From: Buchnera aphidicola (Sarucallis kahawaluokalani)
GTDB lineage: Bacteria; Pseudomonadota; Gammaproteobacteria; Enterobacterales; Enterobacteriaceae
Direction: 5' to 3'
Length of the DNA: 64,000 nt
Assembly (NCBI RefSeq): GCF_005080725.1
Contig: NZ_CP032999.1
Location: forward strand, 213,605-277,604
A program made the position numbers and the translations under genes. Below the pieces are notes generated by a model. The model was not told the origin of the DNA. It worked only from the letters and a program-made list of their open reading frames with translations, and searched no databases. Of the stretch, positions 26,632 through 49,767 are shown piece after piece; position 1 is the first letter of the stretch; every line of letters starts with the position of its first letter.

Positions 26632-27927
26632 TTAATTTAAAAAAGTCATACCATTCATATATTTTTTTCTTAATACGTCCGGTATAGTTACTGATCCATC
26701 AATATTTTGATAATTTTCTAAAATAGCAGCTAATGTTCTACCAACAGCTAATCCTGAACCGTTAATTGTATGTAATAAAAATTTTTTTTTTTTTTTTTTA
26801 TGAAAATATTTTGCATTTATTCTTCTTGTTTGAAAATCTGACATATTAGAACAAGATGATATTTCACGATATTTATTTTGAGCAGGAAACCAAACTTCTA
26901 AATCATATGTTTTAGTAGATGTAAAACCAAGATCTCCAGTACATAACAATATTTTTCTATATGGTAATTTTAATAGTTTTAATATATTTTCTGCATGTGA
27001 TGTTAATATTTCTAAACTCTGCATAGAATATTCAGGACGAGTTAAATGAAATATTTCTACTTTATCAAATTGATGCATACGAATTAAACCTCTTGTATCT
27101 TGTCCATAAGATAAGCTTTCTGCACGAAAACAAGGAGAATATGCAGTTAACATAACTGGTAAATCATTTATTTGTAATAAAATATTTTGAAATAAATTTG
27201 TTAATGGCACCTCTGCAGTTGGTATTAAAATATACTTGTTATTTTTTTGTTTTTGATGTATTGTAGACACATAAAATAATTCTTTCTTGAATTTAGGTAA
27301 TTGACCTGTACCATACATACTATCTGAATTTACTAAATATGGTATATTTGTTTCTAAATATCCATGTTGCATTGTATGTACATCTAACATAAATTGTCCT
27401 ATAGCTCGATACAATAAAGCAATTTTATTTTTCATTATGACAAATCTTGAACCAGAAATTTTTGATGCTGTAAGCCAATCAAAACCATTAATCTTATTTC
27501 CTAATTCCACATGATCAAGAATATTAAAATTATAATTTTTTATTTTTCCCCAATAAGAAATTTCAATATTATGATTTCCATTATTACCAATTGGTACAGT
27601 ATTATCAGGTATATTGGGTATACAAGATATAAAATTTTTTATATCTTTTTGAAATTTTTTTAATACATTATTTTTAGTGGATAATATTTTTTTAATATTA
27701 CATACTTTATTTTTTACATTAATTAAATCTTCTGGGGTAATATTTTTTGAACCAATAATTTTGGATAATTTATTATATTTATATCTTAATTTTTCTACTT
27801 CAATTTGCAGTTCTTTACGATTTTTTTCCATATAATTTAAATGTTTTGCATTTAACACGAAATTTCGATTTTTTAATTTTTTAACAACCAAATTAGAAAC
27901 ATTACGTAATAAATGTGGATCAAGCAT
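26632..27927 (-). CDS. serS: Seryl-tRNA synthetase
   Basis: SerRS charges all serine tRNAs, including the tRNA-Ser(UGA) in this window. From the ATG at 27927 the protein begins MLDPHLLRN, matching E. coli; an ATG four codons upstream is possible. The long N-terminal coiled coil (about 30-100) that grips the tRNA variable arm is present. Class II motifs are SPCFRAESLSYGQDTRGLIR (motif 2), REISSCSNMSDFQTRR and GLAVGRTLAAILENYQ (motif 3). Just before motif 3 the coding strand has 18 consecutive A bases (26782-26799), six lysine codons. E. coli has only short basic residues there. This tract is a plausible slippage site, treated as a finding. Confidence 0.96.
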   Translation of the reverse strand: MLDPHLLRNVSNLVVKKLKNRNFVLNAKHLNYMEKNRKELQIEVEKLRYKYNKLSKIIGSKNITPEDLINVKNKVCNIKKILSTKNNVLKKFQKDIKNFISCIPNIPDNTVPIGNNGNHNIEISYWGKIKNYNFNILDHVELGNKINGFDWLTASKISGSRFVIMKNKIALLYRAIGQFMLDVHTMQHGYLETNIPYLVNSDSMYGTGQLPKFKKELFYVSTIHQKQKNNKYILIPTAEVPLTNLFQNILLQINDLPVMLTAYSPCFRAESLSYGQDTRGLIRMHQFDKVEIFHLTRPEYSMQSLEILTSHAENILKLLKLPYRKILLCTGDLGFTSTKTYDLEVWFPAQNKYREISSCSNMSDFQTRRINAKYFHKKKKKKFLLHTINGSGLAVGRTLAAILENYQNIDGSVTIPDVLRKKYMNGMTFLN

Positions 27928-28114
27928 AATATTTTTCATATTTTAATTAATATATTTAATATAACATATCAATATACCAGTGATATAATTATTAAATATA
28001 TAATAAAAAATAATATATTATCGTATTTTATCATTACAAAGAAAAGAAAAATATTTTATATATATATATAACAAAAAAATTATTTTATTTCATAAAATTA
28101 ATGAGATTTTTATT

Positions 28115-36840: not shown

Positions 36841-36896
36841 TTATGTAACTAAAAATTAAGAAAATAATACTTGTTTAATGGTTGTGGAGTTTTGCA

Positions 36897-37610
36897 ATGA
36901 TATACTCATTCAATCCAACACTGTTGGTTGGATTAATAACACTAATTCTATTAGAAATAGTACTTAATATTGATAATTTAATATTTATTTCTATATTGTC
37001 TGGTAAGTTACACCCCGAACAAAGAAATAAAGCCCGTTTGATAGGTTTGGGATTATCATTTACTCTAAAATTAATTTTACTAACAATAATATCATGGATC
37101 ATTACTTTTAATAATCCCATTTTTAGCAATAAATATTTTAATTTTTCTGTACATAATATCATACTACTATTTGGAGGATCATTTCTTCTAATAAAATCCA
37201 CCATTGAATTATATGAAAAATCACAACAGTATATTATTCACAACCAATATAAAAGTAAATATTCTGGTTTTTGGGTTACTGTTCTTCAAATCATAATTAT
37301 AGATATCATTTTTTCGTTAGATTCTGTTATTACTGCAGTTGGCATGATAAAGAGACTACTTATCATGATTCTTGCAGTAATGATAACTACTATACTAATG
37401 TTTATAGCCACAAAACAACTTACAAAATTTATCAATACGCATAAAAAAATCATAATATTATGTTTAATTTTATTATTAATTATTGGATGTATTTTAATAC
37501 TAGAATCATTTGGAATATATATTTCCAAAAATTATATATATATTACAGTAGGGTTTACTATAATTACTGAATTTTTTAATCAAACTTTTTTTAAAAAATA
37601 TATATCATAA
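36897..37610 (+). CDS. TerC-family membrane protein, truncated to the membrane domain (YoaE-like)
   Basis: The 237-residue protein matches the N-terminal TerC domain of E. coli YoaE: about seven membrane segments, with ILLEIVLNIDNLIFISILSG and DIIFSLDSVITAVGMI as paired acidic, likely metal-binding signatures. E. coli YoaE is about 518 residues and continues into two CBS domains and a CorC/HlyC domain. Here the protein stops (TAA at 37608-37610) right after the membrane domain, and the next 573 bases are empty. The ATG at 36897 has GGAG 7 bases upstream; a TTG at 36882 is less likely. The family has been tied to manganese or tellurium handling; substrate is not shown by the sequence. It may be a working membrane half or a gene in decay. 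Confidence 0.85.
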   Translation: MIYSFNPTLLVGLITLILLEIVLNIDNLIFISILSGKLHPEQRNKARLIGLGLSFTLKLILLTIISWIITFNNPIFSNKYFNFSVHNIILLFGGSFLLIKSTIELYEKSQQYIIHNQYKSKYSGFWVTVLQIIIIDIIFSLDSVITAVGMIKRLLIMILAVMITTILMFIATKQLTKFINTHKKIIILCLILLLIIGCILILESFGIYISKNYIYITVGFTIITEFFNQTFFKKYIS

Positions 37611-38183: not shown

Positions 38184-38846
38184 ATGATCAAACAAAACAT
38201 TTTATCCATTGATTCTTCTTTACAAAATAATTTAGTTGCTATGTTATATAATAATAAATTATATTACAATGTCCATACATGTAAACATCATGAAAAAAAT
38301 TTATTAACTATGATACAAAATCTACTTACAGATCAAAAGGCTAGAATACAAGATTTTCAAATTATTTCTTTTACTACTGGTCCAGGTAGTTTTACTGGTA
38401 TTAGACTTAGTGCAAGTATTGCACAAGGATTATCTATTTTAAATAACATTCATTTGATAGGAATTTCTACGTTAGAAGTATTAGCAGAGCAAATATGGAG
38501 ATTATATAAGATAAAGAAGATTATTATTTGTAATATTGCAAATAAAAAACAAGTGTATTGGGTTAAATATACAAAAAATATAAAAAACATTTGGAATGGT
38601 AAAGAGGTATTATTACATATTAATCAAGCGGTGCAAAAAATTAAAAATTTAAAAAATACATGGTATATTACAGGTTCAGGTAAAATACATTTTCAAAATT
38701 TATACAATCCTTTTTTAAAATATATTGAAACAAATCAATCATATGCTAAAGATTTAATTAAATTAACAATTTTAGCAAAAAAAAAAAAAAATTTTTTTTT
38801 ATTAAATGATATTCAATTAAATTATTTACATAATCCAAAATATTAA
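38184..38846 (+). CDS. tsaB: tRNA threonylcarbamoyladenosine biosynthesis protein TsaB
   Basis: TsaB is the regulatory partner of TsaD in making t6A at position 37 of ANN-decoding tRNAs. The 220-residue protein (E. coli 231) has the ASKHA-fold N-terminus ILSIDSS, the hallmark GPGSFTGIRLS (about 66-76) and IGISTLEVLA. The C-terminal third is poorly conserved. Near the 3' end the coding strand carries 15 A followed by 9 T (38777-38800), a striking homopolymer junction. The gene converges on leuD, separated by a 10-bp hairpin. It lies where it does in other Buchnera, but its usual neighbour minE is now on the far side of the leu operon. Confidence 0.92.
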   Translation: MIKQNILSIDSSLQNNLVAMLYNNKLYYNVHTCKHHEKNLLTMIQNLLTDQKARIQDFQIISFTTGPGSFTGIRLSASIAQGLSILNNIHLIGISTLEVLAEQIWRLYKIKKIIICNIANKKQVYWVKYTKNIKNIWNGKEVLLHINQAVQKIKNLKNTWYITGSGKIHFQNLYNPFLKYIETNQSYAKDLIKLTILAKKKKNFFLLNDIQLNYLHNPKY

Positions 38847-45555: not shown

Positions 45556-46381
45556 ATAATTCAGTTGATTTCAAATATTTATACTAAGGTGTAATAAAAA
45601 AATATAAATATATTATTATAATTTATTAACTAATGTCTTATTCAAAATAAATAAAATATAAAATATATTTAATTAGTTCGAGAAAATATAATCATTATAT
45701 AATACTTGTAATTTTTAATGAAATTTTTGGCAGAAAAGATTTTTATTTACTATGTAAGATCATTTCAGTGAAAAATATTTTTGTAATAAAAATATTCAGA
45801 ATTACATTTAAAGATTTTTATTAAAAAATTTTTATGTTATTATTAAAATTAAATTTATAGAAGCATATAATACAATAAAAAAAAATATATATTTATTTAA
45901 AATTAATTATTTTTGATATTTATTATAAAAACGTCAATGCATAGAATATATATTTATAATATTTTTAAAAATAAAATAATTATGCGATATCTTATAAAAA
46001 ATTTTTTTTAATAATATATTTATCTTAATAGAAATATAAATTTATAAAATATATTTTCTTAATATTTTTATATCTATAAAAATAATATCAAATTTATTAT
46101 TAAAATTATAATACATTTAAAAAATCATTTTAAATTAAAAGTTTTTTCAAATACCAATAAAAGTATTTTTAATAAAAATTTATTTTTTAATATATTGATT
46201 TTATCGTATAGTTTTAAAAAACATTAATAGAATTAAATAATATGAAAATATTTTATAAAGATTGATACATAAAATTATACCTTACATAATAAAATTATAT
46301 TAATTATTTTATATAAATCATGTATATAAAATAGTTCAAAATATTATGTATGTGTTACTAAAATTGATACACATATATTAT
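45556..46381. other. Intergenic region upstream of minC (826 bases)
   Basis: There is no open frame, RNA or clear hairpin here. The DNA is very A+T-rich and presumably holds the min-leu promoter. It is likely the remnant of genes lost between minC and the tRNA cluster; I recognised no fragment. Confidence 0.55.
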
Positions 46382-46465
46382 TACCCAGAGCGGGAATCGA
46401 ACCCGCAAAGCTGTTAAGCCGAGGGATTTTAAGTCCCTTGTGTTTACCTATTTCACCATCCGGGC
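46382..46465 (-). tRNA. tRNA-Leu(UAA)
   Basis: The reverse complement folds into a cloverleaf with acceptor GCCCGGA/TCTGGGT (two G-U pairs), an anticodon stem AGGGA/TCCCT closing the loop CTTAAAA (anticodon UAA), a class II variable arm, and the T arm GCGGG TTCGATT CCCGC. The discriminator is A and CCA is not encoded. It follows tRNA-Cys by 16 bases, matching the cysT-leuZ order of E. coli. 84 bases. Confidence 0.97.
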
Positions 46466-46481
46466 AAAAATAAAATAAAAA

Positions 46482-46553
46482 AGGCGCGTTCTGGAATTGA
46501 ACCAGATTATACGGATTTGCAGTCCGCCACATAAGCCAATCTGTCAACGCGCC
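46482..46553 (-). tRNA. tRNA-Cys(GCA)
   Basis: The acceptor GGCGCGT/ACGCGCC and the anticodon loop CTGCAAA (anticodon GCA) are clear. The discriminator is U, as expected for cysteine. CCA is not encoded. It is upstream of tRNA-Leu on the same strand; the tRNA-Gly that precedes them in E. coli (glyW) is not found in the adjoining sequence. 72 bases. Confidence 0.97.
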
Positions 46554-46752
46554 AAAAGATTTTTATTAAATAATCTATATATCGTATACTTCGTATTAAT
46601 TAATTATATTTTAATTAATTCATCTTATATATTATCATAACATAAAATATTATCAAAATAAATAAATAAAAACTTTACATATAATATTATTTATATTAGT
46701 ATATAATAAAAATTATATTGATATAAATAAAAAAGTTTTTATATACATATCA

Positions 46753-49089: not shown

Positions 49090-49767
49090 ATGAATATTAT
49101 TAATAGTATTAATATTAAAAAAATGTCTACTATTTATTTTAAAAATAAAAATATCATATCTCATTTAAAAAATACAATACAAAAAAAAAAAAATATTCAA
49201 GTATCAAATAAAAATATCTATGATCAAAAAATACAAAAAATAAAAAAAAACAATATATCTAAAAAAACAATAGATCAAGTCAGTCTAGAAAATAATCTAA
49301 TTAATATTAATAATTCAACAATTTATAATATCAATGAAGAAAATTCTAATTTTTTAAATCTATCAGAATTAATTGGACATAATGTACTAATCCCTGGGTC
49401 TAAAATTACTTATATTAAAAATACCAATATAATATATGGTTATTTCTTACCTAAATATACAACATCGTTATTAATACAAATTAAAGATCAAAATCATCAT
49501 TTAATTTTTTCGAATTTAATTAATACACAAAAACCTGGAAATTATACATATTACTGGAATGGAGAAGTTAATAATATATGTAATTTAAACTCAGGTTTAT
49601 ATGAACTTTCAATCCAAGCTGAAAACGAAAATGGACCATTTTATGTACAACCTTTAGTTCATGGTATCGTGAAAAGTATTGATTATGATCCGAATGCTAA
49701 TGCATATAAAATTAATTTAGGTATTACTGGAAAAGTTGATATAAAAGATATTAAAAGAATATTTTAA
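49090..49767 (+). CDS. flgD: Flagellar hook-capping protein FlgD, N-terminus diverged, isolated from all other flg genes
   Basis: FlgD caps the growing flagellar hook. From about residue 93 the 225-residue protein aligns well with E. coli FlgD: LIGHNVLIPGSKI, GKAG-like TQKPGNYTYYWNGEVN, NSGLYELSIQAENENG, VQPLVHGIVKSI and the end LGITGKVDIKDIKRIF. The first 90 residues do not: the family signature FLTLLVxQLxNQDPxNPM, needed for export and early function, is absent and is replaced by a lysine/asparagine/isoleucine-rich stretch with an A13 tract at 49181-49193. AAGG stands 7 bases before the ATG, so it looks translated. No other flagellar gene is in the window. Either the cap domain has a separate use or the gene is in decay. 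Confidence 0.85.
   Translation: MNIINSINIKKMSTIYFKNKNIISHLKNTIQKKKNIQVSNKNIYDQKIQKIKKNNISKKTIDQVSLENNLININNSTIYNINEENSNFLNLSELIGHNVLIPGSKITYIKNTNIIYGYFLPKYTTSLLIQIKDQNHHLIFSNLINTQKPGNYTYYWNGEVNNICNLNSGLYELSIQAENENGPFYVQPLVHGIVKSIDYDPNANAYKINLGITGKVDIKDIKRIF

Follow-up and report, generated by a model that had tools for sequence, protein, structure and literature searches.

A run of 18 adenines within the seryl-tRNA synthetase gene serS is very probably a long coding poly(A) tract of an ordinary kind, in a Buchnera genome that is reduced, rich in A+T and apparently without mismatch repair. The tract itself, its reading frame, the fixed length of the protein segment that carries it, the absence from the genus of matches to one MutS domain and one MutL domain, and the lack of synonymous avoidance of long A-runs are direct observations. 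The tract is ordinary for genomes of this kind. Here we describe its position, its relation to codon use and to the protein, and the consequences that slippage within it would have.

The serS gene (positions 26632–27939, minus strand, of the window, by which we mean the whole 64-kb stretch of DNA analysed) is an unbroken open reading frame of 435 codons. Its product matches the family model TIGR00414 over residues 5–425 with 491 bits (cut-off 302), bearing out the original prediction that the gene is serS, and contains the Pfam domains PF02403 (Seryl_tRNA_N) and PF00587 (tRNA-synt_2b), the class II core. The best match to a solved SerRS has an E value of 2.9e-149, with bacterial SerRS at the top by sequence, and a fold search with the predicted SerRS model likewise placed bacterial enzymes best, Klebsiella pneumoniae first and E. 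coli second. The neighbouring genes resemble what we take to be aroA, serC and trxB. A scan of genome contigs for serS returned 44 loci that are 31–46% identical, none of which is titled as an insect symbiont; these loci were left out of the comparisons below. The tract, at 26782–26799, reads as T18 on the plus strand and A18 on the coding strand, and is the top homopolymer of the window (runners-up 15, 14 and 13). It begins at offset 1140 of the coding sequence, in frame 0, and consists of six AAA codons for Lys381–Lys386; three residues (FLL) separate these lysines from HTINGSGLAVGR (HTINGSG), which we take to be the beginning of ‘motif 3’ of SerRS. The sequence thus agrees with the original prediction in strand, in the intact frame and in the placement of six lysine codons just ahead of motif 3.

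The length of the run follows from codon bias, and its rarity lies in the six consecutive lysines rather than in codon choice. The window has a G+C content of 23%, and AAA accounts for 1,636 of its 1,730 lysine codons (roughly 95%). When synonymous codons were resampled with the proteins preserved, 74% of 500 resamplings had a longest run of at least 18. The share was 13% among 200 order-5 Markov windows, 1.3% among 1,000 within-gene codon shuffles and 0.5% among 200 order-1 Markov windows; all of these figures are for a tract preselected as the longest run of the window. Because the codon shuffles so seldom reach this length, composition alone does not explain the cluster of six lysines, which is the only lysine run longer than four in the 53 open reading frames of the window. 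Runs of A or T of at least nine bases number 51 in the window, 48 of them inside predicted reading frames and three between, and on the sense strand of the 53 reading frames such runs are A in 47 cases and T in one. We pooled the window with 60-kb orthologous stretches of five congeners, in totals that were summed by hand over mechanically called reading frames of related genomes, so that the trials are not independent. In this pool, sense A-runs of at least 9, 11 and 13 were observed 315, 79 and 22 times, against 299.9, 69.4 and 17.7 expected under synonymous resampling, and synonymous avoidance of long A-runs was not seen. Nor are lysine runs in the pool enriched in AAG (21 of 691 codons in runs of three or more lysines versus 380 of 7,203 among single lysines), so selection to break up the runs is not visible; one congener, G001, goes against the pooled trend, with AAG at 7 of 54 in K3 runs versus 90 of 1,089 in single lysines. 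The slight excess of long runs is partly unexplained; a mild influence other than codon choice, for instance local A-richness or expansion, may be at work. Low G+C, the use of AAA, the outcome of synonymous resampling and the presence of similar tracts elsewhere place the serS tract among the long in-frame coding poly(A) tracts of A+T-biased symbionts.

Such tracts are widespread in the genus, which appears, from domain searches of its sequences, to lack mismatch repair. The single MutS domain searched for, PF00488 (MutS_V), had no match in any of the 11 genus genomes, and neither did the single MutL domain, PF01119 (DNA_mis_repair), which we take to be of MutL type; each was found in 11 of 14 controls. 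Runs of at least 15, coding or not, occur in all 11 genus genomes. This genome, a single contig of 428,356 bp, has ten tracts of at least 15 among the matches listed, after collapsing by hand: one A24, two A18, one A17, two A16 and four A15. The A24 (contig C1 of this genome, G000, 27633–27656, outside the window) is in frame and encodes the last eight lysines before the stop of an RpoC-like reading frame, and an A16 (C1:190598–190613, also outside the window) is in frame in an argS-like reading frame, which would make it the second aminoacyl-tRNA synthetase gene here to carry a very long run of A; we take these genes to be rpoC and argS by recognition. The ends of rpoC in relatives carry similar lysine tails in G002 (A15) and G006 (A25) and interrupted ones in G001 and G010; the end in G009 gave no match to the motif. 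The second A18 (C1:289334–289351) and the A17 (C1:355094–355110), both outside the window, are not in long open frames. Both runs are enclosed by inverted repeats that fold at −14 to −22 kcal/mol whichever strand is taken, figures that carry no shuffle control, and the two are perhaps terminator hairpins between genes. Separately, G006 is a lineage with exceptional homopolymers: its overlapping A15 matches number 132, where none of the ten other genomes exceeds 35, and it has one run of at least 28.

Within the protein, the tract lies in a segment of 16 residues (residues 374–389, positions 26773–26820, minus strand) that runs from the DFQxRR block to HTxNGSG and whose length is kept while its sequence varies. 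It is 16 residues long in all 11 Buchnera genus genomes. Counting these in, the family set comprised 39 loci, 11 from the genus and 28 others, the latter taken from a search that matched 79 of 79 genomes and gave loci for its best 30 matches; two of the 39 gave no match to the search motif, and 34 of the 37 readable loci have 16 residues, the exceptions having 15, 17 and 18. E. coli SerRS aligns over the same segment without gaps and has three lysines in the 16 residues, and the genus has four to seven. In the predicted SerRS model, residues 381–384 form a turn flanked by strands at 377–380 and 385–388, so that the six lysines may sit in a turn of the enzyme. Mean pLDDT is 90 for residues 381–390 and 65.9 for the whole model, whose superposition on solved SerRS is poor (rmsd around 20 Å); given this weak overall model, we count the turn placement as support only. 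The longest A-run in the segment measures 18, 13, 11, 9, 9, 9, 9, 9, 8, 7 and 6 across the 11 genus genomes. Each of the ten congeners has two to seven non-A bases at the 18 positions of the tract, and for every position one or more of these congeners has an A there. Because the segment is fixed at 16 residues, A18 can have arisen by point substitutions without a net insertion or deletion, and the length of 18 keeps the ancestral register.

This fixed length bears on two other accounts of the tract. Replication slippage could have lengthened a shorter run in three-base steps, as might be expected from the missing MutS and MutL domain matches and from long runs being slightly above synonymous expectation. 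However, the residue count is equal in all 11 genomes, which means that there was no net expansion, and the relatives carry A-rich codons at the same columns in interrupted form; we rejected net expansion by slippage and regard this account as extremely improbable. The true length might instead differ from 18, that figure having been fixed by the base caller or assembler, a concern that the original prediction had raised as a miscount. Long homopolymers are hard to call, and a run of 31 N, which may or may not be an assembly gap, lies near the rpoC A24 of the same genome. Against this, 18 bases give the residue count of all ten congeners and of E. coli, whereas a miscount by one or two would break an essential gene. 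The agreement with the ten congeners makes a miscount by one or two unlikely, and we consider an artefact highly improbable. The original prediction also proposed that tract lengths be compared among relatives: the tract itself stands, but the uninterrupted A18 is present in only one of 11 genus genomes and is not a conserved feature. Its implied oddity is weaker than it first appears, as a lysine-rich turn is common to the genus, no net insertion or deletion is needed, and runs of at least 15 occur in every genus genome.

Slippage within the tract would nonetheless matter to the gene’s products. In silico, changing the number of A bases by three in either direction keeps the frame and gives proteins of 434 or 436 residues, whereas changes of one, two or four bases lead to a stop at 391–397 residues, 11–17 codons from the start of the tract, with loss of motif 3. 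Given what has been published on Buchnera, slippage is likely and its production of such truncated SerRS plausible, so that the interpretation in the original prediction is supported in part. As the original prediction had noted for Buchnera, poly(A) slippage is described as rescuing endosymbiont genes: a review reports 12–50% ‘corrected’ transcripts at long poly(A) runs in frameshifted endosymbiont genes (PMC5009743), and a second paper gives a figure of 30% from the same original source (PMC3017870). Transcriptional insertions in Buchnera climb exponentially with run length, as measured up to 11 nt, and that study states that it detected no case of frame restoration (PMC5574713). For E. coli RNA polymerase, slippage is reported to be lower on runs of A than on runs of T (PMC6260861). 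None of the papers listed by a literature search on Buchnera homopolymers and frameshifts had serS in it.

Three known situations resemble that of serS. In Buchnera and Blochmannia, frameshifted genes with poly(A) runs (Tamas et al. 2008; Wernegreen et al. 2010; as described in PMC5009743, PMC3017870 and PMC4389277) resemble serS in having a long coding run of A in an insect endosymbiont rich in A+T, and the same physical slippage is expected. A gene of that class would be expected to have a frame broken by an insertion or deletion at the poly(A) tract, with the broken frame or tract kept among relatives, and the runs quoted for the known cases are 11 and 12 nt; serS, with its longer run, is in frame 0 over 435 residues, its A18 is confined to one of 11 genomes, and the serS matches contain no stop in any of the 11. 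Unlike the rescued genes, it has nothing to rescue and, because its genomic frame is intact, slippage can only break transcripts. The transcriptional insertions and deletions of Buchnera LSR1 and E. coli (PMC5574713) likewise concern homopolymers within normal Buchnera genes, where insertions become more frequent with length, although the Buchnera measurements end at 11 nt, short of the serS tract. Slippage sites that yield more than one product, such as Thermus dnaX (PMC5009743 and PMC6260861), also combine a coding A-run with short out-of-frame tails; the serS run, in contrast, is not conserved in relatives, and nothing points to use of a short SerRS. A further account of the tract is that it works as a throttle: slippage of RNA polymerase at A18 would be so frequent that a substantial share of the serS mRNA, perhaps a selected one, is out of frame, which would lower SerRS output. 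The corrected fractions and the exponential dependence on run length cited above would favour such a throttle, as would the early termination of the slipped frames. The lesser slippage of E. coli RNA polymerase on A runs speaks against it, and so does the distribution of the tract, as the next longest runs in the genus are A13 and A11. With A18 in a single genome, a throttle device is not conserved; we rejected conserved slippage on this ground and consider the throttle highly improbable.

Genes split between frames were not found among the 53 reading frames of the window when these were compared with the 60-kb orthologous stretches of the five congeners, save for one mechanical reading frame of 67 residues (46344–46547), split in three of the five and taken as a non-gene. 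The reverse search, with congener reading frames against the window, gave no split and seven partial matches, of which four are a TerC-family gene, one touches the edge of the window and the other two are small reading frames that match 46482–46613. This comparison sees frame changes between two tblastn pieces (E ≤ 1e-5, one strand), and slips near a gene end or in genes without a match escape it. Reading frames without a match numbered 2, 2, 4, 2 and 12 of 53 in G001, G002, G010, G006 and G009; some are located past the stretch ends and others may be lost genes. Several other loci in the window drew our attention. The TerC-family membrane protein (36882–37610) has 242 residues, against 440 (G001), 437 (G002), 524 (G010) and 522 (G006) in its orthologues, and so lacks the C-terminal half; the 570 bases downstream, rich in A+T, have stop codons in each of the three forward frames and show no evident remnant. 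A 225-residue reading frame with an A13 tract (49090–49767) matches FlgD weakly, falling just short of the Pfam cut-offs, has no match in the 60-kb stretches of the five congeners, and is possibly a fading flagellar gene. At 38777–38800, A15 is followed directly by T9, an A/T-run of 24 bases within an open frame, at the 3′ end of a reading frame that matches Pfam TsaD (38184–38846).

Taking A18 as an ordinary coding tract, we propose that point substitutions removed the last interrupting bases from a turn of SerRS that is rich in lysine and tolerant of sequence change. Six adjacent lysines, each encoded by AAA because nearly all lysine codons of the window are AAA, would then have yielded the run of 18. 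Purifying selection would maintain both frame and residue number; replication slippage would be frequent, its frame-breaking products being purged. Transcriptional slippage would give a mixed pool of serS mRNA, in which slips of three bases would produce enzymes with five or seven lysines, probably active, and slips of one or two bases would produce proteins ending at 391–397 residues without motif 3. The tract would have no regulatory role, and its likely effect would be a passive cost.

More speculatively, coding tracts of 16–24 A in serS, argS and rpoC might make at least 10% of the transcripts off-length, SerRS being a standing mix of active variants with four to eight lysines and truncated forms of 391–397 residues, a possibility that we hold tentatively and think rather doubtful. 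If it were true, the lysine turn would tolerate slips of multiples of three bases, and essential genes would persist well past the run lengths measured so far. The serS tract exceeds the longest Buchnera transcript runs measured in PMC5574713 by seven bases. Being in frame, longer than the measured runs and present in interrupted versions in relatives, whose forms of the same turn are built-in controls, it offers a clean natural test of transcription slippage tolerated by an essential gene; otherwise, A18 is the expected yield of A+T bias, lysine richness and the loss of mismatch repair.
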